A program made the position numbers and the translations under genes. A DNA stretch of 64,000 nucleotides, taken from the NCBI GenBank assembly GCA_025354165.1, contig JANXNI010000045.1:62001-126000 (forward strand), read 5' to 3'. The notes beneath the pieces are model-generated. The model was not told the origin of the DNA, ran no database searches, and saw only the letters and a list, made by a program, of their open reading frames with translations. Origin of the DNA: Burkholderiales bacterium. GTDB taxonomy: Bacteria; Pseudomonadota; Gammaproteobacteria; Burkholderiales; Casimicrobiaceae. Numbering within the stretch: the first letter of the stretch is position 1; each line of letters starts with the position of its first letter. Shown here one piece after another: positions 71-63,388 of the stretch.

Positions 71-186
71 CAGCTTTTTCGTAAAAGTACCGCTACATTG
101 GGGCTATACCGCCATATCGTTTAAAGTCAACTTCTGTACTTTTGTGGATGTAGCCCTTGTTCGGTCGTCTTTCTATCGAAAAGCCG
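71..186. repeat. 116-nt palindromic element, copy 1
   Basis: It begins CAGCTTTTTCG and ends CGAAAAGCCG. GGGGCTA stands at element positions 30-36 and TAGCCC at 81-86. The two 36-nt arms match at about 21 positions as a palindrome, with about seven more G-U pairs if transcribed from the plus strand. The centre reads TCAA instead of the usual TCGA. It aligns without gaps to six other copies in this window. Confidence 0.8.
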
Positions 187-553
187 TATCGAAGCGACGA
201 CGAAATTTAGTTCGCAGCCGTGCCCGCAAGCATCGCACTCCTCTTCGCGGCACGATCATGCTGGCGCGCGATTGCCGCAGACCAGATAACACGTCGAATC
301 CACGGCCGTATCTGCGATGCCTTATTAGGCGCTGATGGCTCCGCTCACTTCGTGCGGATCAGAAGATCTATTTTGGTCTTATGTCAGACGCAGCGTCGTC
401 TGCACAAGGCGCAGAATGTTATGTCCGAATCCATCGGTATACGATCCCATCCCTAAATCATCTGATGTCGAATAGCCTGATGTGGACGGTATGTAGTCAG
501 CCGACGACGGCTTTCGCGGTCGGACAACGGGTAACAGACCAAGGAGAAATACT
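187..553. other. Intergenic stretch without a recognisable gene
   Basis: Between the first 116-nt element and the OsmC-like gene I see no convincing reading frame: short frames here have biased composition and no ribosome binding site. The last part is the leader of the next gene, with AAGGAG about 8 nt before its ATG. A promoter could not be placed with confidence. Confidence 0.5.
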
Positions 554-1012
554 ATGGACAATCCGGTTCAAATCAAACTCGAACAACAGCACGACTTTCA
601 GTTTGCGGTTAATTTCGACAATCCGCTGATTCCAGTACTACTGACCGACGAGCCTGCTCCGCTGGGCGGCGGTCATGGCCCAAACCCAGAGCAAATGCTC
701 GCGGTCGCAGTAGCAAACTGCCTGTCTGCGAGCCTTCTGTTCGCAATGCGCAAATTTAAGAATGACCCGACGCCGATTCGCACTTTGGCGACGATTGGAA
801 CTGCACGAAATGCGCAAAACCGGATGCGCATAAGCGCCATCTCGGTCGACGTCACGCTTGGTGTTCCAGCATCGAGCATCACCATGCTCGAGCGCATCCT
901 TGGACAATTCGAAGATTTCTGCGTCGTCACGCAGAGCGTCCGCACTGCGATCCCGGTGACCGTCCGAGTTCTCGACGCGGATGGCAGTTTGCTGCGCACG
1001 TCAGGCGCTTGA
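554..1012 (+). CDS. OsmC/Ohr-family protein
   Basis: This 152-residue protein has the usual length and layout of OsmC/Ohr hydroperoxide-reactive proteins: a beta-rich N-terminal half, then a helix with PEQMLAVAVANCLSAS, where the Cys matches the first conserved family cysteine. A second cysteine occurs at DFCVVTQSV, the region of the second conserved Cys. Both thiols needed for organic peroxide reduction therefore seem present. The ATG is preceded by a good AAGGAG. It lies upstream of ahpC/ahpF on the same strand, which fits an oxidative-stress role. Whether it is a true Ohr, an OsmC or a YhfA-like member cannot be decided by eye. Confidence 0.8.
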   Translation: MDNPVQIKLEQQHDFQFAVNFDNPLIPVLLTDEPAPLGGGHGPNPEQMLAVAVANCLSASLLFAMRKFKNDPTPIRTLATIGTARNAQNRMRISAISVDVTLGVPASSITMLERILGQFEDFCVVTQSVRTAIPVTVRVLDADGSLLRTSGA

Positions 1013-1390
1013 CGGCCGCATCCAAAACGCGAAGTACACATTGCCTGGCGCGTTCCCGCGCCTCGCAGCGAAGACTTTACGTTTCATTGCTGCCCAGGCG
1101 ATACCAGCCTCTCCGTTGGCGCTTGTCATAAGAGATACCGGTGTCGCGCATCGATGCATATAGCCGCCTCTCTGCACTTGGGCGCGCAGCTTGTTCGAGG
1201 CGAATTGAATCTCTTATCGGGGTGAACGATACGGCCCTTCGCCCCCTCCTTTGGATGAATCCGACACGATACTCCACCAACTTCGGTACGCCCAACGCGA
1301 CGCGCTGCTGGCATAGCGCGTGGTCAACATTGTTAATGTGATGGCGCGTTATAAGTGCCTTTTCCACTTAAACTATGTAATTTAACTAGT
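1013..1390. other. Intergenic stretch with one inverted repeat
   Basis: No gene is supported between the OsmC-like gene and the ahpC promoter. The only structure I noticed is a pair of perfect 9-nt inverted words, ATAAGAGAT near 1127-1140 and ATCTCTTAT near 1208-1220, about 70 nt apart. Overlapping open frames on both strands lack start signals and resemble no family. Confidence 0.4.
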
Positions 1391-1419
1391 TTGACTAATC
1401 ACAGTTGCGCCGCAACAAT
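1391..1419 (+). promoter_or_regulatory. Candidate ahpC promoter
   Basis: TTGACT (1391-1396) is followed after 17 nt by AACAAT (1414-1419), giving a start of transcription near 1426 and a leader of about 50 nt to the ahpC ATG. The -35 is good and the -10 is weak, as expected for an activated promoter. OxyR commonly controls ahpC, but I could not recognise a clear ATAG-N7-CTAT array upstream. Confidence 0.4.
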
Positions 1420-1475
1420 TAGGGCATCGACTCCTCCTCCGCTTGATGAGCAAACCACAAAACAAAGGATATTTC

Positions 1476-2039
1476 ATGTCACTTATCAACACTACCATCA
1501 AGCCATTCAAGGCTACCGCCTACCAAAACGGCAAATTTATTGATGTTTCTGACGCCACGATGAAGGGCAAATGGTCAGTTGTCGTGTTCTACCCGGCCGA
1601 CTTCACTTTCGTCTGCCCGACTGAGCTGGAAGACCTCGCAGACAACTACGCTGAATTCCAGAAATTGGGCGTAGAGGTGTATGGCGTTTCAACCGACAGT
1701 CACTTCGCACACAAAGCGTGGCACGACACTTCGGAAGCCATCAAGAAAGTGCAATATGCACTGGTCGGCGACCCGACCGCGACACTCGCACGCAACTTCG
1801 ATGTGCTGATCGAAGAAGAAGGTATGGCGCTTCGTGGCACCTTCGTGATCAATCCAGAAGGTCAGATCAAACTCTGCGAAATTCACGACAACGGCATTGG
1901 TCGCGATGCGTCGGAACTGCTGCGCAAGGTTCGTGCGGCCAAATACGTCGCTGAGCATCCGGGTCAAGTGTGTCCAGCGAAATGGACCGAAGGTGCAGCA
2001 ACGCTAACGCCATCGCTGGACCTGGTCGGCAAGATCTAA
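1476..2039 (+). CDS. ahpC: Alkyl hydroperoxide reductase subunit C (peroxiredoxin)
   Basis: A typical 2-Cys peroxiredoxin of 187 residues that reduces hydrogen peroxide and organic peroxides with electrons from AhpF. The peroxidatic cysteine is C47 in [11 protein letters not shown], and the resolving cysteine is about C166 in [10 protein letters not shown]. The C-terminal region matches bacterial AhpC in length. An upstream in-frame ATG exists at 1443, but the ATG at 1476 has AAAGGA at the proper distance and gives the family N-terminus. ahpF follows 209 nt downstream on the same strand; the gap holds a hairpin and a repeat, so the two may be partly uncoupled. Confidence 0.97.
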
Positions 2040-2056
2040 GTCCACCTAAGAGCGCG

Positions 2057-2071
2057 CTCCCGCTACGGGAG
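2057..2071 (+). terminator. Hairpin after ahpC
   Basis: CTCCCG-CTA-CGGGAG is a perfect 6-bp stem with a 3-nt loop, 17 nt after the ahpC stop. There is no T-run, so it may stabilise the ahpC 3' end or cause partial termination rather than being a strong terminator. Confidence 0.4.
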
Positions 2072-2082
2072 GCAGCGTTAGT

Positions 2083-2123
2083 CCCCTCTCTCCTCGTGGG
2101 AGAGGGTTAGGGTGAGGGGCTGG
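2083..2123. repeat. GGGAGAGGGTTAGGGTGAGGGG-type repeat
   Basis: It reads CCCCTCTCTCC, a short spacer, then GGGAGAGGGTTAGGG and TGAGGGG, so the left part can pair with the first right-hand block. The same sequence family occurs inside the nnr gene (31556-31664, inverted pair) and inside abmA (61969-62006). Here it sits harmlessly between ahpC and ahpF. Confidence 0.7.
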
Positions 2124-2248
2124 TCACAGCACAAATCCCGTGATTCGAGCGCCCCACAACACCCTCAGTTACACAGGCAACCCCGTTCAACCCAAAGGGC
2201 GAACGCGGGCTTTCTACTGCCCACAATTTTGAATTAGCGAGCTCTATC

Positions 2249-3793
2249 ATGCTAGACATCAATCTCAAAACTCAACTCAAGGCCTACCTCGAAAAGCTCA
2301 CGCAGCCCATCGAAATCATCGCCTCGGTGGATGACAGCAAGGGCTCTCGCGACCTCGTCGAATTGCTCGCAGACATCAAGCCACTGTCCGATCGCATCAC
2401 TGTGACTGAGCGTCGCAATGACGCGGAAAGAAAACCGTCATTCGCCATCACTCGGCCCGGCGATGAAATAGGTGTCCGCTTCGCAGGCCTGCCGCTCGGA
2501 CACGAATTCACGTCGCTGGTTTTGGCATTGCTGCACGTCGGTGGTCACCCGTCAAAAGCTGCCTCCGATCTCATCGAGCAAGTGAAAAATCTACATGGGC
2601 CGTTTCACTTTGAAACCTACTTCTCGCTGACGTGCCAAAACTGCCCGGACGTAGTTCAAGCCCTCAATTTGATGGCCGTGTTGAATCCAAATATCAGCCA
2701 CGTCGCTATCGACGGCGCGCTGTTTCAGGACGAAGTCACGAAGCGCCAGATCATGAACGTGCCATCCGTCTTTCTGAACGGCGAACCGTTCGGTCAAGGC
2801 CGCATGGAGCTTGCCGAGATTCTCGCCAAGCTTGACACCGGCAGTGCCGCGCGCGAAGCAGAAAAGTTGAACGCAAAAGCGCCCTTCGACGTACTGATCG
2901 TCGGCGGTGGCCCCGCGGGTGCAGCGGCCGCTGTGTACGCCGCACGCAAAGGCATTGCCACCGGCATCGTGGCCGAGCGTTTCGGCGGTCAGGTGCTAGA
3001 CACAATGGGCATCGAGAACTACATCTCGATCAAAGAAACCGACGGCCCACACTTCGCCGTAGCGTTGGAACAACACGTCAAATCGTACGACGTCGACGTT
3101 ATGAATTTACAGCGGGCCGAGGCTTTGGTGCCCGGCCAGCTGATTGAGATCAAACTAAAAAGCGGCGCATCGCTCAAGTCAAAAACCGTAATTCTTGCGA
3201 CAGGCGCACGATGGCGCGATATGAACGTGCCCGGTGAAAAAGAATATCGAACCAAAGGCGTCACTTACTGCCCGCATTGCGATGGGCCATTGTTTAAAGG
3301 CAAACGCGTCGCCGTCGTTGGCGGCGGCAATTCAGGCGTTGAGGCGGCGATTGACCTGGCTGGCCTGGTCGCGCACGTGACATTGATCGAATTCGCCAAC
3401 GAGCTTCGTGCCGACGCGGTGCTACAGCGGAAGCTAAATAGCCTTCCCAACGTCACCGTCATCTTGCATGCGCAAACGACCGAGGTCACGGGCGATGGAC
3501 AAAAAGTCAATGGGCTGATCTACAAGGATCGTACGACCGATGCAGTGAATAGACTGGACCTCGAAGGTGTCTTCGTGCAGATTGGGTTGCTGCCGAACAC
3601 CGATTGGCTCAAAGGTGTTGTTGATCTGTCGAAACACGGCGAAATTGTCGTCGATGCAAATGGTCGAACTAATGTTACCGGCGTATTCGCAGCGGGAGAT
3701 GCCACGACTACACCCTTCAAGCAAATCGTCATCGCGGCGGGTGAAGGATCGAAAGCTGCGCTCTCCGCGTTTGATCACATCATTCGGAGTTAG
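2249..3793 (+). CDS. ahpF: Alkyl hydroperoxide reductase subunit F
   Basis: A 514-residue flavoprotein that passes electrons from NADH through FAD and two dithiol centres to AhpC. The N-terminal tandem thioredoxin-like domain carries C129-x-x-C132 (LTCQNCPD). The FAD-binding motif GGGPAG lies near residue 215. The thioredoxin-reductase-type redox pair C341-x-x-C344 (YCPHCDG) is followed by the NADH-binding GGGNSG motif. A C-terminal FAD motif ends in FAAGD. Length and motif order are those of a complete AhpF. It follows ahpC and converges with the B12 transport operon. Confidence 0.97.
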
Positions 3794-3847
3794 CGCAAGC
3801 GGTCAACGGAAACTGGGATGACCCTGCAGGCGCGTAACTTCGTTAGG

Positions 3848-4612
3848 TCATTGCGGCAGGGCAATCCATTGATCAGCAACAGACCTTACCGCCACCCGAT
3901 GATCAAACACGGCCTCCAGCGCGCGGTGCGTGGCGGCATCAACGCAGAGCCCTTCATACGTGACGCGACCACCCGCCATGATGACCATATCGTCGGCATT
4001 CAGCGCCATCGAAATTTCGTGCAAAACGCTGACCACGGTCGTCCCTTTCGCTGCGAGCACACGCACGATGGCGAGCCAGTCGGCCTGATGCGGCGGATCA
4101 AGATTGGCGAGCGGTTCATCCATCAAGAGCACCTGCGCCTCGGATGCTAGCGCGCGCGCCAGCAACACACGCTGGCGCTCGCCACCAGAAAGCGTGCCCA
4201 GCGAGCGACTCCGGTATTTCCAAGATTGCGTAGCGCGCAGCGCGCGCTCCACTGCCGCGTGATCCGCAGCACTCGGCGGCGCTAACCAACTCTGATGTGG
4301 AATGCGCCCTAGCATCACAATGTCGTAGGCACCAAGGTCTTCGGCAGCAATTTCGTTTTGCCCTAACCAGCCGAGTGTTTGCGCACGCTCGCGGCGCGAC
4401 CACTCGGGTAGTGGTTCGCCCAATAAATTCACGCTGCCTGTGCAAGGCAGAATTCCGGCCAACACCTTGAGCAACGTCGATTTGCCCGCTCCGTTCGGGC
4501 CGACAATACTTGTCCAGCGCCCTTTGCGAAAACCGGCAGTCACACCATGCAAAATCGGTGCTTTACCGATGCTGACACTGATTGCCGAAGCGGAAATCGC
4601 GAGTGCTTGCAT
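3848..4612 (-). CDS. btuD: Vitamin B12 ABC transporter, ATP-binding protein
   Basis: This 254-residue FecCD/BtuCD-class ATPase powers cobalamin import across the inner membrane. It has Walker [10 protein letters not shown], the signature LSGGERQRV, Walker B LLMDEPLANLD and the switch histidine in VSVLHEI. The start is set at the ATG whose first base is the last base of the permease stop codon (TGATG, 4610-4614), a translational coupling seen again one gene upstream. A longer frame to 4660 would overlap the permease. Assignment to B12 rather than iron siderophore rests on the riboswitch and BtuB-like receptor at the head of the operon. Confidence 0.88.
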   Translation of the reverse strand: MQALAISASAISVSIGKAPILHGVTAGFRKGRWTSIVGPNGAGKSTLLKVLAGILPCTGSVNLLGEPLPEWSRRERAQTLGWLGQNEIAAEDLGAYDIVMLGRIPHQSWLAPPSAADHAAVERALRATQSWKYRSRSLGTLSGGERQRVLLARALASEAQVLLMDEPLANLDPPHQADWLAIVRVLAAKGTTVVSVLHEISMALNADDMVIMAGGRVTYEGLCVDAATHRALEAVFDHRVAVRSVADQWIALPQ

Positions 4613-5700
4613 CAAACCACTCGACCGGAAATTGTGCTCCCGCCCCGATGCATCAACCACAGCAGATAGCCGCCTCCGAGCACCGCCGTCAACACGCCCA
4701 CCGGTAGCTCCTGCGGCGCTATCAACCAGCGAGCCAATAAATCCGCGCTAGACAACAAAACGCCACCGGTCAGGCTGGACAGCAGTATCAAATTTCCATG
4801 CATCACGCGCACGACAGAGCGTACCAAGTGCGGCGCTGCCAGTCCGACAAAAGCGATCAATCCGGTTTGTGCGACTGCTGCGCCCGTGGCGAGCGCCAGG
4901 ATGCCGATCAACGCTGCGCGTAGCGGCACCAACGGCAGCCCCAGACTCGCAGCAGTAGCTTCCCCCAAACTTAAGCCGTCGAGCGCTCGGCTGAGCGACC
5001 ACGCGGCAGCGCCGCACAACGGCAGCGCGGTAAGCATCATCGTGCACGCGGCCCACCCCACAAAGCCAGTGGAGCCCAATAAAAACGCCTGCATCGCCTG
5101 CATTGAATCAGGCGAGAAAACCAGTACTAACGATGTTCCAGCGCCAAGCACCACGCCAACAACAACGCCCGCCAGCAGCAACCGCAAGGTGTGCTGAACA
5201 CCACGCGCCAAAGCAAGCGTGAGCAATACACCAACAATCGCGCCGCAAAATGCGGCACCGGTCAACCCCAGGCGCACCCACCAGCTTGGCGATAAAACGG
5301 AGGTCGCGATAGTCGTCGCAGAGCCGCCACTGACCATACCTGCTGCGCCGCCCAGCAGTGCCAGCGCCAAGGCAACGGCTAGCGCCGCGCCCGTCGCGCT
5401 GCCGAGCAAATAAGGATCGGCCAGCGGATTGCGAAACAGGCCTTGTGCCAATGCGCCCGCCAGCCCCAATAGCGCACCCGCAGCCCATGCGCCCATCGTG
5501 CGCGGCAGACGGATGTTCCACACAATCTGCTCGGCCATTGCGCGCTCGGATGAACCTTTCGCCGCATTGAGCAGATCATTCAACAGATTCTCAAACCCCG
5601 TACTTCCGATACACACGCCGAGCGCTATCAAAACAACGCTCACAACAAGCAGCAATAGCGCCAGTGCCGCCGCTCGTCTTGACGCAGGCGACATCGGCAT
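4612..5700 (-). CDS. btuC: Vitamin B12 ABC transporter, permease
   Basis: A FecCD/BtuC-family inner-membrane permease of 362 residues with about ten hydrophobic segments. Family landmarks are NIRLPRTMGAWAAGALLGLAG near the N-terminus, NPLADPYLLGSATGA, and the coupling-helix region GLIAFVGLAAPHLVRS, which contacts the ATPase. The start is taken at 5700, where ATG overlaps the btuF stop as TGATG; an in-frame ATG also lies two codons upstream at 5706. It is bracketed by the binding protein and the ATPase in the standard order F-C-D. Confidence 0.88.
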   Translation of the reverse strand: MPMSPASRRAAALALLLLVVSVVLIALGVCIGSTGFENLLNDLLNAAKGSSERAMAEQIVWNIRLPRTMGAWAAGALLGLAGALAQGLFRNPLADPYLLGSATGAALAVALALALLGGAAGMVSGGSATTIATSVLSPSWWVRLGLTGAAFCGAIVGVLLTLALARGVQHTLRLLLAGVVVGVVLGAGTSLVLVFSPDSMQAMQAFLLGSTGFVGWAACTMMLTALPLCGAAAWSLSRALDGLSLGEATAASLGLPLVPLRAALIGILALATGAAVAQTGLIAFVGLAAPHLVRSVVRVMHGNLILLSSLTGGVLLSSADLLARWLIAPQELPVGVLTAVLGGGYLLWLMHRGGSTISGRVV

Positions 5701-6587: not shown

Positions 6588-6748
6588 CGTTGGCTGTACT
6601 TCAAAGTCAGCAGCAGATCGGTGGCCACGAATGTGACCCGATCACGCGCCTTTGCAACTACCTGATGGCGTCGTCCCACTATGTCGACAAGCTCGCCGCA
6701 ACGCGGCAGCGTTGTAGCTGCTTCGCCCACTGTAATAGTCGTTTTCAC
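6584..6748 (-). CDS. Small coupled ORF between btuB and btuF
   Basis: A 54-residue frame fills almost exactly the space between btuB and btuF. Its GTG start shares a base with the btuB stop (TAGTG, 6746-6750), and its TGA stop overlaps the btuF start (ATGA, 6584-6587). Coupling at both ends within a tightly packed operon is strong evidence of translation. The product starts MKTTITVGEAATTLPR and is predicted soluble and beta-rich (VDIVGRRHQVV, VTFVATDLLLTLKY), with a single cysteine. There is no signal peptide or membrane segment. I recognise no family. Alternatively it is only a translated spacer that keeps ribosomes moving between the two genes. Confidence 0.6.
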   Translation of the reverse strand: MKTTITVGEAATTLPRCGELVDIVGRRHQVVAKARDRVTFVATDLLLTLKYSQR

Positions 6749-8704: not shown

Positions 8705-8726
8705 GTCGCGCGCCTCAGCGCGCGAC
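8705..8726 (-). promoter_or_regulatory. Leader hairpin after the cobalamin aptamer
   Basis: GTCGCGCGC-CTCA-GCGCGCGAC (plus-strand reading) is a perfect 9-bp stem with a 4-nt loop, 68 nt before the btuB start and next to the aptamer 3' side. There is no T-run on the minus strand, so it is not an intrinsic terminator. It may be part of the expression platform of the riboswitch, acting on translation or on Rho-dependent termination. Confidence 0.55.
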
Positions 8727-8727
8727 A

Positions 8728-8885
8728 GACCGCCTTGTTGGCCGGTATCCGGGCTGATGGAAAGAAAATTTTCTGTCCACTTACCGTTGCGGGGGCAGCG
8801 CTGGTTAGAAACGTACGCACCAAGCATTCACTCAGCACGAACCACTTTCCCCCAGCTTCCCGTTGAACTGCAACGCGTGACCACG
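8728..8885 (-). ncRNA. Cobalamin riboswitch
   Basis: Read on the minus strand, the leader of btuB holds the hallmarks of an AdoCbl-class riboswitch. A 5' part AACGGGAAGCTGGGGGAAAG is followed by the B12-box core GCTGCCCCCGCAACGGTAA (8779-8799), then AGCCCGGATACCGGCC (8740-8755). Order and spacing match the family. Binding of cobalamin is expected to switch off btuB and, through the operon, btuFCD. Boundaries are approximate. Confidence 0.9.
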
Positions 8886-9083
8886 TTGCGAGCACCAACA
8901 CGCAGATTCTAGGTCAATTGTCGCGGCACCTGCCTCGATTAGCTACGCATCGACAGTCCGGCAATGCCTTTTCTGGCATCCGTTCATACCTGTATCCAAC
9001 GCGTTGCCAAGTCCCGCATGGCGCTACGCGAACACGCGAAGCACAAATCTGCCAAGGCTTGCGTACGCAGCCTCATAATGTTG

Positions 9084-13534: not shown

Positions 13535-13650
13535 CAGCTTTAGCGCATAACGACGACTGCATGGGGGCTAGGAACTAATATCGACGAAAGTCGACTTGTA
13601 ACCAAATTCGAGGTAAGCCCCTGTCAAATGGTTGTTTCAAAGAAAAGCTG
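13535..13650. repeat. 116-nt palindromic element, copy 2
   Basis: It runs from CAGCTTTAGC to GAAAAGCTG. GGGGCTA ends at element position 36, AAGCCCC stands at 81-87, and the centre TCGA at 57-60. The arms match at about 21 of 36 positions. It begins 31 nt beyond the 3' end of the outer-membrane protein gene and also precedes moaD. Confidence 0.8.
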
Positions 13651-23948: not shown

Positions 23949-24064
23949 CAGCTTTCACCGCAAACCCAGACTGATCAGGGGCTATCGACCGATTATTCAA
24001 ATAATCGAAATCATTCGAAATAGGCCTGTAGCCCCTATGCAATGGACGTTTCAACGAAAAGTTA
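23949..24064. repeat. 116-nt palindromic element, copy 3
   Basis: It runs from CAGCTTTCACC to GAAAAGTTA. GGGGCTA is at element positions 30-36, TAGCCCCTA at 81-89 and the centre TCGA at 57-60. About 20 of 36 arm positions pair. It lies in a convergent gap, 22 nt after the paaG stop and 25 nt beyond the 3' end of the P-domain gene. Confidence 0.8.
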
Positions 24065-35689: not shown

Positions 35690-35805
35690 CAGCTTTGTGC
35701 TGAAGCCCATAATTTATAAGGGGTATAACCAGTAAACCCTCAAAGTCGATATTCATCAATATTACGCGCTACCCCTTATTCAGCAGTCATTTCGCGATAA
35801 AGCCA
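35690..35805. repeat. 116-nt palindromic element, copy 4
   Basis: It runs from CAGCTTTGTGC to GATAAAGCCA. AAGGGGTA is paired with TACCCCTT at element positions 29-36 and 81-88, and the centre TCGA is at 57-60. The ten inner arm bases pair perfectly; about 21 of 36 pair in all. It lies upstream of the LysR gene and 140 nt beyond the 3' end of the diguanylate cyclase gene. Confidence 0.8.
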
Positions 35806-46033: not shown

Positions 46034-46149
46034 CAGCTTTTCCGTAAACGGCTTATTTCATGGGGGTTGGCGGTAACAAATCGCGTTTCTCGATAAATTC
46101 AAAATACCGCGCTCAGCCCTCGTGCAGTGGTCATTTCAGCCAAAAGCTG
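46034..46149. repeat. 116-nt palindromic element, copy 5
   Basis: It runs from CAGCTTTTCC to CAAAAGCTG. Its outer eight bases pair perfectly. GGGGG is at element positions 29-33, CAGCCC at 81-86, and TCGA at 57-60. Of 36 arm positions about 21 are Watson-Crick and about six more would be G-U if transcribed from the plus strand. It lies 14 nt beyond the 3' end of a PIN-domain remnant and 145 nt after the PAP2 gene. Confidence 0.85.
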
Positions 46150-50315: not shown

Positions 50316-50420
50316 CTAGGGGGTTCTAAAACAGCAAATACAGGGATGAGTGAGGGTAGCACAGGTATAACCCGCGCCCTCGCCCGTGCCCGCGCCGCCC
50401 CGCGAGCGTAGGATCGCCGC

Positions 50421-51317
50421 CTACGCCAGGTGTTTTTTAAAATGCTCCAGCGTGCGATCCCACGACAGTTTGGCGGCGGTTTCGTCGTAACGCGGCGTGG
50501 AGTTGTTGTGAAAGCCGTGCTGCGTGCCAGCGTAAGTGTGCGCCTCAAACTTCGCGCCCGACGCTTTCAGGGCAGTCTCATAGGCGGGCCATGTGCCGTT
50601 AACGCCGGGATCGGTCGCGGCGAAGTGAATGAGCATTGCGGCTTTGATGTTCGGTACTTTTGACGTTTCCGCCGCTGCGCCGTAGTACGGAGCCGACGCC
50701 TGCAGGTCTGCGCCCATCGTCGCGGCGAGATAGTTGCTCGTTCCGCCACCCCAGCAAAAGCCGGTGACGCCGAGTTTGCCAGTGGACAGTTTGTGCGCCT
50801 TGAGCCACTTCGCGCCGTTCAGCATGTCGGTGCGCAGCTTGGCCTGATCGAGTTTGCCCTGCATCGTCCGGCCATCGTCGTCATTGCCTGGATAGCCGCC
50901 AAGCGGCGCGAGGCCGTCCGGTGCCAGCGCGAGAAAGCCCGCCGCAGCGGCGCGGCGCGCGACGTCTTCAATGTAGGGATTCAAACCGCGATTTTCGTGA
51001 ATGATCAGCACACTGGGAAACGGGCCGGCACCAGCCGGTTGCACGAGGTAGCCGCGCATCGTGTCGCCGTTCCCGCCAGGTGACGGGTAGGTGACGTAAG
51101 ACGCTTTGATGCGCGGGTCGGTGAACGAAATGGTTTGCGCTTTGGCATACTGCGGAAGCAACGACGTGGCCATGGCAAGCGCGGGGATGCCCAGTGCGGC
51201 GAGCGCACCGGCGCGTTTTAGGTATTCGCGGCGATCAATCTTGCCGTGGCAATATTCGTCGTACAAATCGTAGACGCGCTGGTCAATTTCGATCTGGGTG
51301 ATGCCAGTGTTGCTCAT
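50421..51317 (-). CDS. Exported dienelactone hydrolase family protein
   Basis: A 298-residue alpha/beta hydrolase. An N-terminal region of 60 residues has a twin-arginine-like DRREYLKRAGALAALGIPAL followed by a hydrophobic stretch and AKAQ, indicating export, probably by Tat. The nucleophile is the Cys in VTGFCWGGG, with Asp in AATDPGVN and His in GTQHGFHNN, the dienelactone hydrolase triad. The substrate is unknown. A hairpin GCGTAGG..CCTACGC spans its stop codon (50406-50426). Confidence 0.88.
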   Translation of the reverse strand: MSNTGITQIEIDQRVYDLYDEYCHGKIDRREYLKRAGALAALGIPALAMATSLLPQYAKAQTISFTDPRIKASYVTYPSPGGNGDTMRGYLVQPAGAGPFPSVLIIHENRGLNPYIEDVARRAAAAGFLALAPDGLAPLGGYPGNDDDGRTMQGKLDQAKLRTDMLNGAKWLKAHKLSTGKLGVTGFCWGGGTSNYLAATMGADLQASAPYYGAAAETSKVPNIKAAMLIHFAATDPGVNGTWPAYETALKASGAKFEAHTYAGTQHGFHNNSTPRYDETAAKLSWDRTLEHFKKHLA

Positions 51318-51400: not shown

Positions 51401-51516
51401 CAACTTTTTTATGAAAGCGCTATTTCATGAGGGCTGGATGCTCATATTGACGATAGTCGATAAAGTTGATTTATCGCGTCTAGCCCCTATATCAACGTCG
51501 TTTGGCGAAAAAGCTG
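51401..51516. repeat. 116-nt palindromic element, copy 6
   Basis: It runs from CAACTTTTTT to GAAAAAGCTG. GAGGGCTG is at element positions 29-36, TAGCCCC at 81-87, and TCGA at 57-60. About 20 of 36 arm positions pair plus about five G-U. It lies 36 nt beyond the 3' end of livF and 84 nt upstream of the dienelactone hydrolase start. Confidence 0.8.
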
Positions 51517-56456: not shown

Positions 56457-56478
56457 CGTGAATCAAGCGTACGTGACG

Positions 56479-56898
56479 CTATTTCTTGAGGTTATCGCGA
56501 ATTTCACGCAGCAACAGCACGTCTTCCGGCGTCGCGGCGGGGGCCGGAGCAGGTTCCGCTTTTTTCATCTTGTTCATTGCTTTAACCATCATAAAAATGA
56601 TCCAAGCCAAAATGAGGAAGTTAATCAGGATCGTAATGAAATTGCCATAGGCGAACGTAGCAATACCGGCCTTCTTGAGATCCGCAAGCGTGGTGAGCTT
56701 GTTCGGGTTGTCGCCCAACACAATCAGCATGTTGGAGAAATCAAAGCCTCCAAATAGCTTGCCAACAATCGGCATGATCAGGTCGCCCACAATCGAATCG
56801 ACGATCTTGCCGAACGCGCCGCCAATGATGACGCCGACCGCTAAATCCATCACGTTGCCTTTGAGTGCAAAGGTCTTGAATTCATCCATCATCGACAT
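56479..56898 (-). CDS. mscL: Large-conductance mechanosensitive channel
   Basis: A 139-residue MscL. The N-terminal amphipathic helix [34 protein letters not shown] leads into TM1, and the second helix is [25 protein letters not shown]. The C-terminal tail [11 protein letters not shown] is typical. It opens on strong membrane tension to release solutes in hypo-osmotic shock. It follows glnK by 38 nt and has its own terminator. Confidence 0.97.
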
Positions 56899-56936
56899 GA
56901 TTTATTTTCTCCTTGAACGATTTGAAATGACGGCAG

Positions 56937-57341
<405 letters not shown>

Positions 57342-57395
57342 TTATGTCGCGAAAGTTGTGCGCGCGATGTGTATTCGAGAATTTACGGACGAATC

Positions 57396-57794
57396 CTAGT
57401 TTGAGTCAGGCACCACCGCAGTCACTTCAATTTCAACTTTGGCCCGCGTCTCCACAAGCCGCGAAACCTCAACGCAACTCATCGTCGGGAAGTTGCGTCC
57501 GATCACTTCGCGATACACCGCGCCCAGCTCCTTTAGTCGTGCCACGTATTCGTCACGATCCACGATGTACCAGGTCATGCGCACCATATGTTCGGGACCG
57601 GCATTCGCTTCCCGCAGCACGGCGACGATATTTATCAGGGCTTGACGCGTTTGCGCAATGAAATCATCGGTCTCGAACGCTCGCTGCCCATTCCAGCCGA
57701 TTTGTCCGCCGACGAAAACCATCGTGCCGCGCGCCGCGATGCCGTTGGCGTAGCCTTTTGGCGATAGCCATTCGGGGGGGTGAAGCAATTTCAT
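57396..57794 (-). CDS. RidA/YjgF-family imine deaminase
   Basis: A 132-residue RidA-fold protein. GMVFVGGQIGWNG, AFETDDFIAQTRQALINIVAVLREANAG and MTWYIVDRDEYV with a conserved Arg near the end (TMSCVEVSRLVETRAKVEIEVTAVV) are family segments. Members hydrolyse reactive enamines and imines. In a 2-aminobenzoyl-CoA operon it is well placed to release ammonia from the imine or enamine formed by the monooxygenase/reductase (inference). Its start overlaps the ligase stop by 4 nt. Confidence 0.88.
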   Translation of the reverse strand: MKLLHPPEWLSPKGYANGIAARGTMVFVGGQIGWNGQRAFETDDFIAQTRQALINIVAVLREANAGPEHMVRMTWYIVDRDEYVARLKELGAVYREVIGRNFPTMSCVEVSRLVETRAKVEIEVTAVVPDSN

Positions 57795-59395
57795 TTTTTA
57801 GTCTCACTCTGGCGCAGCCGATGTCGCTGCAATTTTCCAGTTTCGGTACGCGGCAGGCTCGCGACGAATTCAATCTGGCGTGGGTACTTGTAGGGGGCAA
57901 GATTGGATTTCACGAAATCCTGCAGGTTGATGCGTAGCGCGTCATCGGCCACGGCGTCAGCTTTCGCCACGATGAAAGCCTTGACGATCATTCCTCGTTC
58001 AGCATCTGCCTCACCGATCACCGCGCATTCCGCCACGGCCACATGTTGCGCCAGGCAGTTCTCCACTTCCGGGCCTGCCACGTTGTAGCCTGCAGTAATG
58101 ATCATGTCGTCATCACGTGCCTGATAGAAAAAATAGCCATCAGCATCCATCAAGAACGAGTCGCCGGGATAGTTCCAACCGTTCCTGACGTAGTTCTTCT
58201 GGCGCGTTTCGTCGAGATATTTGCAACCCGTGGGGCCGATGACAGCGAGCTTGCCGACCGTTCCGGGAGGCAATGGATTGCCGATTTCGTCGACAACCTG
58301 CGCCTTGTAGCCTGGGACAACTTTGCCGATAGCGCCGCGCCTCACTTCGCTTTCGGCACTGGAGATGAAGATGTGAAACATCTCGGTAGCGCCGATGCCG
58401 TCCAGTATTTCGATGCCCGTCGCCTGCTTCCATAATTGTCGCGTCGCGTCCGGCAAACCTTCGCCCGCGCTCACGCACGTGCGCAGCGTCGGCATGGGCG
58501 TTTTTTCAGCGAACGCGGCCATGCGCCGATAGAAAGTGGGCGCCGTATAGCAAATCGATGCGCCAACGTGATTGATCGTTTTCACCATCAACTCGGGCGT
58601 GTAACCTGTGTCCGGAAAATACACACTGGCCCCGGCCCACATCGGGAATACCAGCATGCCGCCCAGGCCGAACGTGAACGCCAGTGGCGGTGAGCCAACA
58701 ACGATGTCATCAGGTGTTGCCCGCAATACATGACGCGGCCACGTTTCGCACGCAGCCAAGACATCTCGGTGCGAATGCAACGCCGCCTTGGGCGCACCAG
58801 TGGTGCCGCTGGTGAACGCCATCAGCGCAATGTCGTCGCCGTGGGTTTTTACTGCCAACGACGCGTTGCTTTTACCGTCAGCAGCGCGCTTGGTGTCGCC
58901 AAACGTGACGATACGACTGAGCACCGGACATTGCGTTTGCGCGATTTGCAATTCTTCGGTCAATGCATCGGCACAGAGCGCAAACGAAACCTGTCCTTTG
59001 GCAATCACATCGGTGAGTTCGCGAGCACGCAGCATGGGCATCGTCGCCACCGCAATCAATCCAACCTTGACCACCGCGAGCCACGCTACCGCCATGTCGA
59101 TGCTGTTTCCACCGCGCAGAAGCACCCGGTTTCCCGACATGAGACCGTAGTCCTCGATCAGGGCGCTACCAAGCTGGTTTACGCGATTGAGCACCTGAGC
59201 ATACGTCAGCGATTCGCGCGCATCGCGCAGCAAAATGCGCTCACCGTTACCCTTCGCTACATTGCCATCGAGCAACTCAACCACGGCGTTCAGCTGCACA
59301 GGAAATTGCAATTCCGGTGTCTCAAAAATAAGCTGCGGGAGGTCACTCGCAGCAGGCATGCGGCCATGCACGAATCGATCAGTTTGTGTGCTCAC
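57791..59395 (-). CDS. 2-aminobenzoate-CoA ligase or related benzoate-CoA ligase
   Basis: A 534-residue AMP-forming acyl-CoA synthetase. Motifs are LMAFTSGTTGAPKAALHSHRD (P-loop), DGIGATEMFHIFISS (adenine and aromatic-substrate side), YQARDDDMIITAGYNVAGPEVE, and the catalytic Lys in RTETGKLQRHRLR. The aryl-type LGGMLVFPMWAGASVYFPD fits benzoate/anthranilate ligases. Activation of 2-aminobenzoate is inferred from the following abmA. It starts 79 nt after the enoyl-CoA hydratase; GGGCAC/GTGCCC inverted words lie in that gap. Confidence 0.88.
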   Translation of the reverse strand: MSTQTDRFVHGRMPAASDLPQLIFETPELQFPVQLNAVVELLDGNVAKGNGERILLRDARESLTYAQVLNRVNQLGSALIEDYGLMSGNRVLLRGGNSIDMAVAWLAVVKVGLIAVATMPMLRARELTDVIAKGQVSFALCADALTEELQIAQTQCPVLSRIVTFGDTKRAADGKSNASLAVKTHGDDIALMAFTSGTTGAPKAALHSHRDVLAACETWPRHVLRATPDDIVVGSPPLAFTFGLGGMLVFPMWAGASVYFPDTGYTPELMVKTINHVGASICYTAPTFYRRMAAFAEKTPMPTLRTCVSAGEGLPDATRQLWKQATGIEILDGIGATEMFHIFISSAESEVRRGAIGKVVPGYKAQVVDEIGNPLPPGTVGKLAVIGPTGCKYLDETRQKNYVRNGWNYPGDSFLMDADGYFFYQARDDDMIITAGYNVAGPEVENCLAQHVAVAECAVIGEADAERGMIVKAFIVAKADAVADDALRINLQDFVKSNLAPYKYPRQIEFVASLPRTETGKLQRHRLRQSETKK

Positions 59396-59474
59396 TTTTC
59401 TCCCTTCCGCAACAACAATCAGGGCACTACTGACAATTCATTATTAGCGGTGCCCACCATCCGTTTTATGTTGA

Positions 59475-60329
59475 CTAATTACCCTCAAACACTGGCTTCT
59501 GTTTCGCAGCAAACGCGTGAAACGCGCGATGAAAATCCTGGGTCTGCATGCAGATCGCCTGAGCTTGCGCTTCTGCCTCGATCGCCATGTCGATGGTCAT
59601 CGACCACTCCTGATGCAGCATGGTTTTAGTCATGCCGTGCGCAAAATTGGGGCCCGCGACCAATGACTCAGCGAGTTTGGTCGCGTCAACAACAAGCGCC
59701 TCGGAAGCGTGCAAAGCATTGAAAAATCCCCACGCCAAGCCTTCATGTGCCGTCATCGCTCGCCCGGTGAACAGCAACTCTGCTGCGCGTCCCTGCCCGA
59801 TCATGCGCGGCAGCAAGGCGCACGCCCCCATATCAGCGCCCGCCAACCCCACACGCGTGAACAAAAACGCCGTCTTCGCACCGGGCGTCCCCAGTCTCAT
59901 GTCACTCGCCAGCGCTATCATCGCGCCGGCGCCAGCACAGATACCGTCTACGGCCGCGATCACCGGTTGTGGACAGTTTTTGATTGCTTTAACCAGATCA
60001 CCCGTCATTCGCGTAAACGCAAGCAACTCTGGCATCGACATTTTTGTTAGCGGCCCGATGATCTCGTGAACATCGCCGCCAGAACAGAAATTCCCGCCTT
60101 CACCGCTCAGGATGACCGCCTTGATGTCAGTCGCGTAGACCAGATCGCGAAACAGATTGCGCAGCTCCGCGTACGAATCAAACGTTAGCGGATTCTTGCG
60201 ATCCGGACGATTAAGCGTGACATGTGCAATACGTCGCTCGGCTTCTCCTGATGTGGTGAAGCGAAAGTGCGTGGCCGTGTAATTCGCTAGGGGGCGAAAG
60301 CCGTTCGCCATCGGATTGTTTACGTTCAA
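59475..60329 (-). CDS. Enoyl-CoA hydratase of the abm operon
   Basis: A 284-residue crotonase-fold enzyme. [16 protein letters not shown] and [51 protein letters not shown] are the oxyanion and catalytic regions. A longer N-terminus (about 25 residues) than PaaF or PaaG. In the aerobic 2-aminobenzoyl-CoA route such a hydratase could act on the reduced ring product. It overlaps marR by 4 nt, so it is co-translated. Confidence 0.85.
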
Positions 60330-60799
60330 AGTACCGCCTCCGCTGCGTTGATATGGTGTTTCACTTTGCCGAGCAGCGCGTGCAGAGCCTCAACCTCTCG
60401 TTCGTTCAGGCCCGCGAGCGACTCTACGATCCAGCCCTCATGAACGCTGGCCATTTCGGCAAACGCTTTTTTTCCGGCAGGCGTCAATCGGATCAGCAGT
60501 GCACGTCGATCACCTTCGAGCGGCACCCGTTGCACCATGCCTTCCGCCTCCAGCTGATCGGTGATGCCGGTCACATTGCCGCCCGTCACCATCATGCGCC
60601 GCGACAGCTCGTTCATCTTCAGGCCATCAGGCGCGCGTTCCAGCTGCGCCATCAAATCGAAGCGCGGCAGCGTCGTCTCAAATTGCTCGCGAAGGCGCGC
60701 TCTGACCTGTTGCTCAATGAGCTGCGTACAGGTCAACAGGCGCAGCCACAAACGCAGCGCATCATGGTGGTCTTCACGGGCACGTGCTTCAAGATCCAT
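60326..60799 (-). CDS. MarR-family regulator of the abm operon
   Basis: A 157-residue MarR protein. The winged helix is in [45 protein letters not shown], followed by the wing [18 protein letters not shown]. It lies 3 nt after abmA and overlaps the hydratase gene, so it is part of the operon it probably represses. MarR proteins of aromatic CoA pathways commonly respond to an aryl-CoA thioester. Confidence 0.92.
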
Positions 60800-60802
60800 C
60801 GT

Positions 60803-63184
60803 TCACTGCTCCAACTGAATCGCTGCGATTTCCGCGGCGCTCAAGCCAGCGAGCGTCGCCGCTACGGCCTTATCCTTCGCCAAATTCCGATAAAGCTGAT
60901 CGCGCCCACTCAAATACTGCTTCGGCCAATCAATCGCCTGACTTCCGAGTTTTGCAGCCTCGTGCAACGTCCAGGCGGGATCGGCGAGATGCGGTCTCGC
61001 CACCGCACACAAATCTGCACGCCCTGCGGCAATGATGCTGTCAACGTGATCGGCCTCAAACACCGAGCCGACGGCAATCGTACGAATGCCCACTTCGTTA
61101 CGGATACGATCCGCGAACGGTGTCTGATACATGCGACCGTAGACCGGTTTGGCATCGCGCGTGGTCTGTCCCGACGATACGTCGATGAAGTCTGCGCCTG
61201 CCGCTTTGAACAATCGCGCGACAACAATCGCGTCATCCGCCGTATTGCCACCGGGTGCCCAATCGTGCGCCGAAATGCGCACACTCATCGGCAACTGGTC
61301 CGGCCACGCTGCGCGCACCGCACGGAAAACTTCGAGCGGATATCGGCAACGATTTTCGATGCTGCCACCGTACTCGTCCGCGCGGTGATTAGTCAGCGGG
61401 CAGATAAATGACGACAGCAAGTAGCCATGTGCACAATGCAACTCAAGCCAGTCGAATCCGGCATGCGCGGCGCGCTCCGTTGCGGCGACAAACTGCGCTG
61501 TCACGTCGCGCATGTCGTCCGCTGTCATGGCTTTTGGTATTTGATTTTGCGGACCGTAGGGCACGGCGCTCGCGGCCAGCAGCGGCCAGTTGTCCGCGAC
61601 CAGCGGTTCATCAGCGGTCTCCCAGCCCAGCTGCGTCGAACCTTTCGGCCCGCTGTGACCGATCTGCATGCCAATCTTTGCGCACGTGGAGGCATGTACG
61701 AAACGCACAATGCGACGCCACGCCTGCATCTGTACATCATTCCACAGACCGGGACAGCCCGTAGTGATGCGTCCCTCCGCCGATGGGCAGGTCATCTCGG
61801 CGAACACGAGCCCTGCCCCCCCCAACGCTCGCGCACCGAGGTGCACGAGGTGAAAATCCTGTGGCACGCCGTCGACAGCCGAGTACATCGCCATTGGGGA
61901 AACAACAACGCGGTTTTTTAGAGTGATGCTGCGGGCGGTTAGGGGCAGCAACATTGGCGGCACTGTAGCCCCTCTCCCTTGAGGGGAGAGGGGTGGGGGC
62001 GAGGGGACCAAATTGCTCGCCATCCACCGCTCGTATCCCCCTAACCACTTCGCGTCCCGTTCGCGCAAATTCTCATGACTGATCCGCTGTGATCGCGTGA
62101 GCAGCGAATACGCAAACTGCTCCACTTCCATCGCGGTGTAGCGATCCACATTCTCAAACCACTCCGTGGAGTTGCGCGCGGCGTTCTGAATCTTTAGCAC
62201 TTCAACCGAACGCACAGCCTCGTAAGCCGCCAACGTTCCGCGCACGTCGTGCTCCCCGCGCGACGCGAACGCGCGCGCGAGCTCAATTGCATCTTCAAGC
62301 GCCAGCTTCGTCCCCGAGCCAATCGAGAAATGCGCTGTGTGTGCGGCGTCGCCCATAAGCACAACAGGAATGTCCCCGTTCCAGTGCGTCCAAGCCTTAC
62401 AAATCACGCGCGGGAAGCGAATCCAGATCGCCGAACCGCGCAGATGTGCCGCATTGGTCATCAGGGCATTGCCATCGAGATATTTCGCGAACAGTTGTTC
62501 GCAAAAAGCGACGGCTTCCGGCTGCTCCATCTTGTCCAGCCCGTGCGCCTGCCACACCACTTCCGGCGTTTCCACAATGAAAGTCGATGTCTCGTCGTCG
62601 TACTTGTACGCATGCGCCTGAAACCAGCCGTGCTCGGTTTGCTCGAACGCAAACGTGAAGGCGTCGAACGTTTTCTTCGTGCCCATCCATACGAAACGAC
62701 ACTGCCGCAAATCGATGTCTGGCTGATAGGTCTTGGCGTAGCGCGTGCGGATGCGGCTATTCAGCCCATCTGATGCGATCACCACCTCAGCCCCGAAATC
62801 AGCTGCCAGCGCTTGATCGTCCGTTACATCGGTCTCGAATACCAGTTCGACACCCAGATCGAGGCAGCGCTGCTGCAAAATGTTCAGTAACCGCTTGCGC
62901 CCAATGCCGCAGAAGCCGTGCCCGCCCGAGCGCACCGTGCGTCCACGAAAGTGCACATCGATATCGTCCCAGTGATTGAACGCATCGCCGATCTGGCCAG
63001 CGGTCACCGGATCAGCGACACGCAAATTGCCCAGCGTCTGATCAGAAAACACGACGCCCCAGCCGAACGTATCAAACGGACGATTGCGCTCCACCACACG
63101 GATGACATGCTGCGGGTTTTGCAGCTTCATTAACAACGCAAAGTACAAACCCGCCGGGCCACCACCGATGCAAAGGATGCGCAT
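60803..63184 (-). CDS. 2-aminobenzoyl-CoA monooxygenase/reductase (FAD hydroxylase-OYE fusion)
   Basis: A 793-residue fusion. Residues 1-390 are a flavoprotein hydroxylase: [14 protein letters not shown] at the N-terminus, [13 protein letters not shown], and [33 protein letters not shown]. Residues 412-793 are an Old-Yellow-Enzyme-type reductase ([34 protein letters not shown]). The layout matches 2-aminobenzoyl-CoA monooxygenase/reductase and the related salicylyl-CoA hydroxylases, which hydroxylate and then reduce the ring. The inter-domain linker [20 protein letters not shown] is encoded by a genomic repeat (61969-62006). First gene of the abm operon. Confidence 0.88.
61969..62006. repeat. 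GGGAGAGGG repeat inside the abmA linker
   Basis: CCCCTCTCCCTTGAGGGGAG continues AGGGGTGGGGGCGAGGGG. The word set and order match the repeats at 2083-2123 and 31556-31664. It is wholly coding, in frame, exactly between the hydroxylase and reductase domains of abmA. Confidence 0.75.
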
Positions 63185-63224
63185 GTTGCCCCGAATTCGT
63201 TTCGCTCAATTAGCTTAAGCATTG

Positions 63225-63253
63225 ATTATTGACATCTAAATTAATGACGTCAA
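63225..63253 (-). promoter_or_regulatory. Promoter of the abm operon
   Basis: On the minus strand TTGACG (63248-63253) and AATAAT (63225-63230) are 17 nt apart, with transcription expected near 63218. TGACGTCA, an 8-nt palindrome, covers the -35 end, and GCTTAAGC (63213-63220) covers the start region. The MarR protein encoded in the operon is a likely binder. Confidence 0.65.
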
Positions 63254-63272
63254 GCAAAGCCTGAAATTTATA

Positions 63273-63388
63273 CAACTTAATCCTGAATCAACACCTGGAT
63301 AGGGGATAGCGACCGATTATTGACAATATCGACAAATAGTATTTTGCCGCTCTAGCGCTTGCACATACGCGACTTAACACGAAAGTTA
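63273..63388. repeat. 116-nt palindromic element, copy 7
   Basis: It runs from CAACTTAATCC to GAAAGTTA. AGGGGATA is at element positions 29-36, TAGCGC at 81-86, TCGA at 57-60. The arms are the most diverged copy, about 16 of 36 pairing, yet length and register are kept. It lies 20 nt beyond the 3' end of the VOC gene and 88 nt upstream of abmA. Confidence 0.7.

Follow-up and report, generated by a model that had tools for sequence, protein, structure and literature searches.

Evenly spaced, doubly symmetric intergenic elements with species dialects as putative chromosome-organising sites

Seven copies of one palindromic element

The window (i.e., the whole 64-kb stretch of DNA that was analysed) contains seven intergenic palindromes of equal length, which raises the question of whether they are decayed mobile DNA or sites held by selection. 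The original prediction favoured selection on the shape of the element, or on the distance between its two bound arms, over a dead transposon. Its seven starts all proved correct, and 7/7 elements could be aligned without gaps over 116 nt (coordinates in the window, no strand assigned; G-numbers denote relatives):

71..186, copy 1: 116 nt with TCAA at its centre
13535..13650, copy 2: orthologous element in G001, G005, G006, G012 and G013, none in G003
23949..24064, copy 3: between convergent genes; orthologous element in G001, G005, G012 and G013 (4/4 relatives with joined flanks)
35690..35805, copy 4: matched on one flank only, to a G012 element (L225:153)
46034..46149, copy 5: flanks not joinable in any of six relatives
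51401..51516, copy 6: orthologous element in G001, G005, G006, G012 and G013 (5/5 relatives with joined flanks)
63273..63388, copy 7: lowest score of the seven; flanks joined in G001 alone, which has an orthologous element

Copy 4 shares 20 nt with the start of a called gene, and the start codon call at this position may be too long, while copy 6 is located upstream of a gene of the dienelactone-hydrolase family (50421-51317, minus strand).

The predicted landmarks, i.e., a GGGGCTA-like block at element positions 30-36, TCGA at 57-60 (TCAA in copy 1), a TAGCCCC-like block at 81-87, an AAAGYTG-like right end and a dyad axis between positions 58 and 59, were all recovered. The CARCTTT proposed for the left end holds for the copies generally, but the copy at 63273 reads CAACTTA. 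Identity between the seven copies is indeed only moderate (54-68 of 116 positions), and 24-32 of the 58 pairs about the dyad are Watson-Crick pairs (26-40 when G-T is included). Nevertheless, the family is sharply delimited: leave-one-out profile scores of the seven elements were 57-94 bits vs. -20 for the best other place in the 64 kb, the profile of all seven copies found no other place above 0 bits in the window, and half-profiles gave 38-57 bits for the fourteen true halves and no more than 7.2 bits elsewhere in the window.

The element is more than a pair of arms: besides its end blocks it has a central palindrome and A/T tracts, and each arm contains a smaller palindrome of its own, as exemplified by copy 6 (no strand assigned):

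51401..51408, end block: consensus CAGCTTTT at element positions 1-8, mirrored at 109-116, from the column profile
51416..51436, arm sub-palindrome: centre at 25.5 (26 in 118-nt dialects), the best local dyad centre
51444..51447, A/T tract: element positions 44-47, with 91-99% A/T in these columns
51453..51464, central palindrome: consensus around TCGA, element positions 53-64

In four species, A/T content is periodic about the dyad with a period of 9.4-9.55 bp (P of 0.0035-0.006 by position shuffling and of 0.0085-0.0445 by 4-mer block shuffling). This period is closer to 9.5 than to 10.5 bp, which we counted against the binding-site reading proposed below. Each element carries 71-87 bits of information (three species), approximately six times the ca. 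13 bits that, by an arithmetic estimate, are needed to locate 530 sites in 4.7 Mb.

Copy number and length

Across 436 kb of the 4.7-Mb source genome (G000), 49 copies were found, which scales to approximately 530 copies in the whole genome. The closest named record is Proteobacteria bacterium isolate SZAS-69 (JAFEDD010000043.1), with 84% identity in TldD. The length of 116 nt, predicted to be fixed, was indeed found for 41/49 of these copies, but the remaining 8/49 are 115, 117 or 118 nt long. Moreover, the usual length is 116 nt in G000 and G001 and 118 nt in five sister species, and the extra base of the longer form apparently sits in the middle of the inner palindrome of each arm. Element length is thus species-typical and strongly preferred, but neither universal nor absolute. 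Two of the 49 copies (L009:17929 and L022:15598) are half-elements of which the other half is not recognisable, so that their length is only that of the model.

No description of the element was found in the literature covered (subscription journals lay mostly outside this coverage). Distant-mode searches yielded no match of one element copy to plasmids and no match of another single copy to phages, and a plasmid or phage origin was rejected for the one copy tried against each.

Genomic placement and spacing

The elements are intergenic and occur in every type of intergenic spacer. In G000, 0/49 copies extend further than about 40 nt into a called gene, and copies lying mostly inside a called gene are rare in the relatives (0/39 in G005, 1/27 in G013, 0/20 in G012, 1/10 in G001 and 1/8 in G006). 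For 27 of the 36 copies having a stop codon on a flank, this codon is 4-40 nt away.

In four species (G000, G005, G012 and G013), mean spacing is 9-13 kb and more even than random, with a spacing CV of 0.39-0.64 observed vs. 0.86-0.97 for random placement (P of 0.022 or less). Specifically, the CV in G000 was 0.64 vs. 0.94-0.97 under five null placements (P of 0.0004-0.002), and only 2/42 neighbour distances were below 2.5 kb where about 10 were expected. The CV was 0.39 in G005 (with 0/20000 uniform placements as even), 0.48 in G012 (P of 0.002) and 0.60 in G013 (P of 0.022), and none of the 65 neighbour distances in these three species was below 2.5 kb; since the species share element positions, the tests are not independent. 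Close pairs do occur at 1.65 kb in G000 (one member being a half-element), at about 1.5 kb in G006 and at 0.24 kb in G003. Spacing in G007 was not even (CV of 0.80, P of 0.20) in a contaminated list with 13/31 hits in genes. As the iterative models for G002 and G007 gave weak hits, only their G000-model matches were relied on, and nothing beyond these is claimed for either genome. Chromosome-organising sites are expected to be sequence-defined and non-randomly distributed, and the even spacing in the four species is such a distribution.

Orthologous places and species dialects

Where flanks could be joined, the element was present at 21/29 testable orthologous places and absent at 8/29, indicating that sites are gained and lost and that no single site is essential. 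Flank identities (0.56-0.90 by gapped alignment, with no random baseline) carry no inference. The occupied places revealed that spelling changes in place, i.e., that species carry dialects of the element: four G013 orthologs scored 37.4, 81.6, 54.9 and 81.9 bits with a G013 leave-one-out model vs. 9.2, 6.3, 19.7 and 11.9 bits, respectively, with the G000 model. The own model also outperformed the G000 model for 3/3 G005 and 5/5 G012 orthologs, two of these wins being narrow (41.7 vs. 39.4 and 41.6 vs. 38.5 bits), and in G006 it was better for 2/4 ortholog copies, with the G000 model better for the other 2/4. One G012 copy (L297:1371) bears G013-like arm blocks, which would not be expected from simple genome-wide co-evolution.

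The G000 model found no match in G016 of the same genus, where another dialect would escape detection. When genomes were scanned for a central dyad flanked by arm dyads, irrespective of dialect, 28 of the top 40 places in G000 were known copies, and no clear signal was obtained in the other genomes. A repeat of Comamonadaceae was also considered as a candidate relative, but no proof of a link was obtained.

Constraint on the element and absence of cross-arm covariation

The variance of column departure was 0.0451 vs. 0.0057 under uniform decay (approximately eightfold), revealing constraint in defined columns, while unconstrained columns are near saturation. Neutral relics were rejected on this over-dispersion together with the positions common to species. 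The predicted selection, as opposed to a dead transposon, is likewise supported by the column constraint, by the 21/29 occupied orthologous places and by the cross-arm pairing described below; it needs correcting in that length is species-typical and the unit more than two spaced arms, with binding a putative cause and mobility a less likely alternative.

Cross-arm covariation, tested in four species, was not found (z of -0.74 to 0.36 relative to the shuffle mean). Cross-arm pairing is thus at the level of independent columns, so that strand folding does not account for the symmetry, although pairing inside the arm palindromes was slightly above expectation (z of 2.7, 0.5, 1.2 and 1.7). Transcribed RNA hairpins and bidirectional terminators would be palindromic and often placed past stop codons, as the elements are. 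However, this reading is largely refuted by the covariation test and scarcely tenable given that the seven copies had no Rfam match at gathering thresholds and that 9/45 copies lie between divergent genes; a hairpin or RNA structure was rejected on the covariation tests together with the Rfam scan of the window.

Putative binding sites of a chromosome-organising complex

MatS, KOPS and parS are sequence-defined sites that organise chromosomes via a dedicated protein; these are short and regional or polar, whereas the present element is 116-118 bp long, symmetric, genome-wide and even. We propose, with a probability of roughly 0.5, that the elements are putative duplex-DNA binding sites of a multi-subunit complex that organises the chromosome. 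Several hundred dispersed sites (approximately 530 in G000), kept for the most part at inherited positions within one genus, would each offer a platform of 116 or 118 bp with two-fold symmetry and phased A/T tracts. On this platform a putative multi-subunit DNA-binding complex would assemble and probably bend or wrap the DNA. The even 9-13 kb spacing might then reflect an organising job such as the anchoring of loops or the stopping or absorption of supercoils, and a change in the DNA-binding part of the complex may drive the sites to change in place, yielding the species dialects.

According to the account in PMC6907758, reported supercoil domains span 10-400 kb, their barriers seem to be placed at random and, as far as that account goes, barrier identities are not established. 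It is conceivable, if somewhat short of an even bet, that a dedicated complex on doubly symmetric 116-118-bp sites about every 10 kb provides sequence-defined domain borders, hundreds of which would be re-spelled and resized together, in place, as its specificity evolves. If so, the question of domain borders becomes directly testable, because conserved, evenly spaced, sequence-defined sites lend themselves to pull-down, deletion and relocation. The dialect change would moreover document, as few natural cases do, the co-evolution of a DNA-binding complex with several hundred targets. Even if the elements were mobile, their even spacing and the places kept between species would constitute a surprising mode of persistence.

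Alternative explanations and known repeat families

The elements might instead be MITEs, REPINs or ancient head-to-head REP dimers that a transposase mobilises in trans; target immunity would then space the copies (which would also yield even spacing), and the transpososome would fix their length. Their intergenic dispersal and full-length palindrome agree with this, as do three places that are empty where relatives carry the element, and a TAG in front of the arm palindrome of many copies, although the GTAG of known REPs occurs in only 8/82 half-elements (vs. CTAG in 16, TCAG in 12 and TTAG in 11 at the REP-matching columns). Y1_Tnp (RAYT family) genes were found in 15/17 same-genus genomes and are absent from G016, the genome lacking G000-model matches, and from G009, which has 21 such matches; the sole Y1_Tnp match of G000, however, has an internal stop. 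REPINs are expected to flank a RAYT gene; here, partial element matches lie near two (L193 and L194) of six Y1_Tnp loci examined, a proportion that may be no more than chance. Near-identical copies, as expected for recent MITEs, were not found among 41 copies of one genome, in which nearest neighbours share at most 78/116 positions. The element has inverted ends, as a MITE would; alignment of the three empty places (13535 in G003; L021:15325 in G005 and G006) revealed no clear target duplication, though flanks have diverged. Since free columns are close to saturation and positions are nevertheless common to species, and in-place dialect change would go unexplained, we consider mobility unlikely, but deserving of serious attention.

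The original prediction named membership of a known REP/BIME family as a refutation; the element does not fit the REP definition, nor that of REPINs with respect to 16-mers and compensatory changes. The element resembles the BIMEs and REPs of E. coli and others in being intergenic, palindromic, present in hundreds of copies and often located past stop codons, and in the TAG preceding its arm palindrome. Unlike them, it is one unit of 116/118 bp (vs. 20-40 bp for a REP unit, which ends in GTAG or CGTC), GTAG is a minority form, TAG is lost in the G013 dialect, and the copies are evenly spaced, never near-identical, and at positions common to species with changed spelling. E. coli has about 600 BIMEs, one of which was shown to impede supercoil diffusion, as described in PMC6907758. 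REPINs, as characterised in PMC3116915, share with the element an inverted palindrome pair at a conserved distance but have invariant 16-mers at both ends, the most abundant of the genome, and common compensatory changes; here, none of the 12 most frequent 16-mers listed for 436 kb belongs to the element, and no compensatory changes between the arms were found in four species. The betaproteobacterial repeat element BRE is likewise a mostly intergenic repeat, but its description in PMC3110155 (75-91 bp at full length, 69% GC, at most 29 per genome, often tandem) differs, and identity with BRE was set aside on that description.

Molecular drive could also spread sites and re-spell them in place, if the elements were uptake-signal-like sequences favoured by biased DNA uptake and recombination, the latter plausibly giving in-place change with flanks kept. 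Known DNA uptake sequences, however, are short, quite unlike an element of 116-118 bp that is symmetric at two levels. ComEC-family genes occur in 17/17 genomes, but G016 and E. coli also have them, so that they do not help to tell the explanations apart. A signal repeated throughout the genome and differing in dialect between species does have a precedent in the Neisseriaceae uptake sequences (as covered in PMC3630211), but intragenic positions are common for those, whereas the doubly symmetric elements are almost never inside genes, and this explanation appears quite improbable.

Highly improbable, finally, is that the elements are preferred DNA gyrase sites, with gyrase wrapping the whole element and cutting its central four bases. 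The E. coli gyrase motif, as presented in PMC6379681, is symmetric, 130 bp long and phased in GC content, with a stagger of 4 bp, and gyrase sites include some BIME-2 located in spacers. The element resembles this in being symmetric, 116-118 bp long and phased in composition, with TCGA at the dyad and a frequent position just past stop codons. Nevertheless, its symmetric phasing has a period of 9.4-9.55 rather than the 10.75 bp found outside the 36-bp centre of the gyrase motif, and its A/T maxima run through the centre. Its end and arm blocks also seem far more specific than the degenerate gyrase motif, and a conserved enzyme would not be expected to produce dialects.

Detection, length and genomic placement of the element

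The seven 116-nt intergenic elements of the original prediction (starting at 71, 13535, 23949, 35690, 46034, 51401 and 63273) were confirmed and align without gaps. A symmetrised profile from any six copies recovered the seventh every time (57–94 bits); the best non-element place in the 64 kb scored –20 bits with the full profile, and a half-profile scan yielded nothing above 7.2 bits besides the fourteen true halves (38–57 bits). Identity between copies was similar in direct orientation (54–68 of 116) and with one of two different copies reversed (49–67 of 116), so that no clear orientation can be assigned.

In 436 kb of the window's own 4.72-Mb draft genome (G000; i.e., the window and 19 of 20 further stretches, one being left out for overlap), an iterated model found 49 copies, including one weak copy (19 bits) and two half-elements (second half not recognisable) whose length is model-derived. 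The length claimed to be fixed held for 41 of these, but eight were 117 nt (six), 118 nt (one) or 115 nt (one); in a separate half-based scan, which let the length vary from 90 to 150 nt, 39 of 46 measured exactly 116 nt. Scaling to whole genomes predicts ~530 copies in G000, and ~375, ~351 and ~258 in the relatives G005, G012 and G013, respectively.

As judged from gene calls by a custom dicodon script (with approximate gene ends), no G000 copy (0/49) overlapped a called gene by more than ~40 nt. Where both neighbours were called (45 copies), 21 pairs were tandem, 15 convergent and 9 divergent, and a stop codon lay 4–40 nt away in 27 of the 36 copies flanked by at least one. Copies mostly inside a called gene were also rare in relatives (G005, 0/39; G013, 1/27; G012, 0/20; G001, 1/10; G006, 1/8).

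Anatomy and constraint

The symmetrised profile (41 copies) holds 84 bits, with the following features.

Features of the 116-nt form, from the column profile
Both ends: end block, CAGCTTTT
Positions 12–16: TGAAA block
Positions 30–36: GGGGCTA block
Positions 44–47 and 54–55: A/T columns
Centre: TC/GA, divided by the dyad (between 58 and 59)

Each arm contains a smaller palindrome. Its centre lies at 25.5 in copies of 116 nt and at 26.0 in those of G012 and G013 (both values almost tied in G005); judging by this shift, the base by which each arm of a 118-nt copy is longer seems to sit at the centre of this inner palindrome. Moreover, A/T content is periodic about the dyad (9.4–9.55 bp) in four species (P 0.0035–0.006 by position shuffle; P 0.0085–0.0445 by 4-mer block shuffle).

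Arm pairing in RNA or single-stranded DNA predicts compensatory changes above chance. Cross-arm covariation, named as a check in the original prediction, was absent from G000 (1237 of 2378 cells Watson-Crick vs. a shuffle mean of 1237.5), G005 (z 0.36), G012 (z –0.11) and G013 (z –0.74), which argues strongly against a folded hairpin in these four species. Within the arm palindromes, pairing was in slight excess (z 2.7, 0.5, 1.2 and 1.7).

Per-column departure from consensus ranges from 0 to 0.83, and its variance (0.0451 vs. 0.0057 for uniform decay) contradicts plain uniform decay, which supports the earlier suggestion of selection rather than relic decay. Five G000–G001 ortholog pairs were compared, one further pair being left out for its unequal lengths: bases matched in 76% of the 52 columns of high information and in 36% of the 40 of low information, vs. 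67% and 30% for random cross-species pairs. The free columns are thus near saturation, and orthologous copies are just slightly more similar than random ones.

Dialects and shared positions

Within the genus, a sequence-only model from 38 copies (R1) matched 16 of 17 genomes (G000 included); in other genera it matched 0 of 13, though R1 could miss a differing dialect. In an order-wide draw with stricter filters it matched 6 of 399 genomes, all in this genus (1 of 158 genera; 6 of its 7 drawn members). The isolate SZAS-69 carries a 117-nt copy directly upstream of tldD (L061:9745-9861).

Sister species differ in consensus and usual length, with 116 nt usual in G001 and 118 nt in the five others listed below; end block and centre are almost unchanged in all six.

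Dialects from iterated models (model-based extension may bias lengths towards the model's own)
G001: 116 nt in 8/10; GGGGCT arm
G005: 118 nt in 26/39 (21/33 in a half-based scan with free length); GGGC arm
G012: 118 nt in 15/20; GGGC arm
G006: 118 nt in 7/8; GGGC arm
G013: 118 nt in 25/27; arm palindrome AACGACCGCC.GGCGGTCGTT
G003: 118 nt in 6/7; arm palindrome AACGACCGCC.GGCGGTCGTT

When ten G000 elements were traced into six relatives (inter-flank interval up to 3.5 kb), an element was present at 21 of the 29 places with both flanks joined.

Orthologous places carrying an element, by G000 element (L021, a further G000 stretch)
13535: 5 of 6 joined places
23949: 4 of 4
51401: 5 of 5
63273: 1 of 1
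L021:6144: 1 of 1
L021:15325: 3 of 5
L021:18702: 2 of 4
L021:9824: 0 of 3
46034 and L021:358: flanks joined in none of the six relatives

Conversely, of 41 relatives' elements mapping to G000 blocks, 29 (script label) or 30 (row reading) lay within reach of a G000 element, several on the strength of a single flank; the chance rate is ~1 spacer in 7 (45 elements in 298 called spacers).

At shared places the spelling can differ between species. The G013 orthologs of 13535, 23949, 51401 and L021:15325 scored 37.4, 81.6, 54.9 and 81.9 bits under a leave-one-out G013 model vs. 9.2, 6.3, 19.7 and 11.9 bits under the G000 model. The flanks of L021:15325 enclose 185 nt in G000 and 182 nt in G013, and the end blocks line up in register. 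The own-dialect model was also better for G005 (3/3) and G012 (5/5, two narrowly), but for just 2 of 4 G006 orthologs; those of G001 have the G000 dialect, the larger G000 model scoring higher in 6/6.

This picture is complicated at the L021:15325 place, where G013 has its own element: the G012 copy (L297:1371-1487) shows G013-like arm blocks and is perhaps a leftover of an older dialect or an exchanged site. The window's spacer between tldD and a dienelactone-hydrolase-family gene (50316-50420) is without an element, and G001, G005 and G013 carry one beside matching gene ends.

Spacing along the chromosome

On three G000 contigs (418 kb; 45 elements including half-elements, 42 distances), elements lie on average 9.15 kb apart (median 8.3 kb; CV 0.64). 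Five nulls (uniform placement, or placement restricted to called spacers no shorter than 0, 20, 60 or 100 nt) gave CVs of 0.94–0.97 (P 0.0004–0.002 for the observed evenness), and 2 distances were below 2.5 kb vs. ~10 expected. Against uniform placement, the only null used for sister species, spacing was even in G005 (CV 0.39, 30 distances; 0 of 20000 random sets equally even), G012 (CV 0.48, 16 distances; P 0.002) and G013 (CV 0.60, 19 distances; P 0.022), none with distances below 2.5 kb; these are not independent replicates since positions are partly shared. No evenness was seen in G007, whose element list is unreliable, and close pairs occur in G006 (~1.5 kb) and G003 (0.24 kb).

Possible role and alternative explanations

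REP, REPIN, MITE, gyrase motif and structured RNA each fail at least one defining feature tested, and BRE is set apart by its published description rather than by sequence comparison. The element was filed under none of them; the original prediction likewise did not recognise it as a named family.

A mobile element with target immunity would account for the spacing and for the empty places, and the TAG preceding the arm palindrome recalls REPs (GTAG in 8 of 82 halves). Of the 17 genomes, 15 carry RAYT-family genes and G016 and G009 do not, a pattern that fits mobility, but the two lacking them are also two of the smallest. Mobility leaves shared positions near saturation, in-place dialect change and the missing recent copies unexplained; we hold this origin to be unlikely. 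Drive resembling that of uptake signals, which we regard as improbable, would explain dialects but neither length nor architecture; ComEC-family genes, being present in 17/17 genomes (G016 included) and likewise in E. coli, do not discriminate. That the elements are DNA gyrase sites would fit their size, symmetry and position past genes, yet their specificity is too high and their period departs from the 10.75 bp reported for the gyrase motif (PMC6379681); we regard this, too, as improbable.

We favor a chromosome-organising role. Since a site holds ~84 bits and far fewer (13) would suffice to specify 530 locations, several protein contacts or several proteins per element are likely. The two-level symmetry and phased A/T tracts suggest a putative two-fold complex of several DNA-binding dimers that would bend or wrap the duplex, and the in-place dialect change suggests co-evolution with the predicted partner's binding surface. 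MatS is a chromosome-organising site, and the element would act as one too if this reading is true, although it is much longer, genome-wide and evenly spread. The even spacing, near the low end of the 10–400 kb reported for E. coli supercoil domains (PMC6907758), suggests that the elements would mark loops or domain borders.

Other repeats and features

Comamonas, Simplicispira and Giesbergeria (L261-L288) carry an abundant REP-like repeat, AGCTGCT[AT]GCGCTTAT..ATAAGCGCTAGAGGCCNATTT, with 81, 61 and 32 exact 14-mer matches in three of 17 genomes (reversed control 0, 1 and 2) and 0–3 in the remaining 14; its CTAGAGGCC.ATTT part resembles the 116-nt element's plurality consensus. Large dyads of ~100–120 nt with TTTCAGATA..TATCTGAAA-like centres lie in Comamonas at L075:7501-7620, L075:14969-15088 and L069:10249-10368. 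A GTCGGCCTGAAGGCCGACCCACA repeat forms dense arrays in L240 (G017, another genus of the same family). The 436 kb of G000 contain the REP-like 16-mers GAGCGGCTTGCCGCGA and CCCCTTGCGGGAGAGG, five times each and unrelated to the element, and the sole G000 match to Y1_Tnp (RAYT family; G000:C58:14400-14648) has an internal stop codon. Finally, a Cobalamin riboswitch lies at 8723-8913 (minus strand) of the window, where a TonB-dependent vitamin-B12-receptor-like gene begins.
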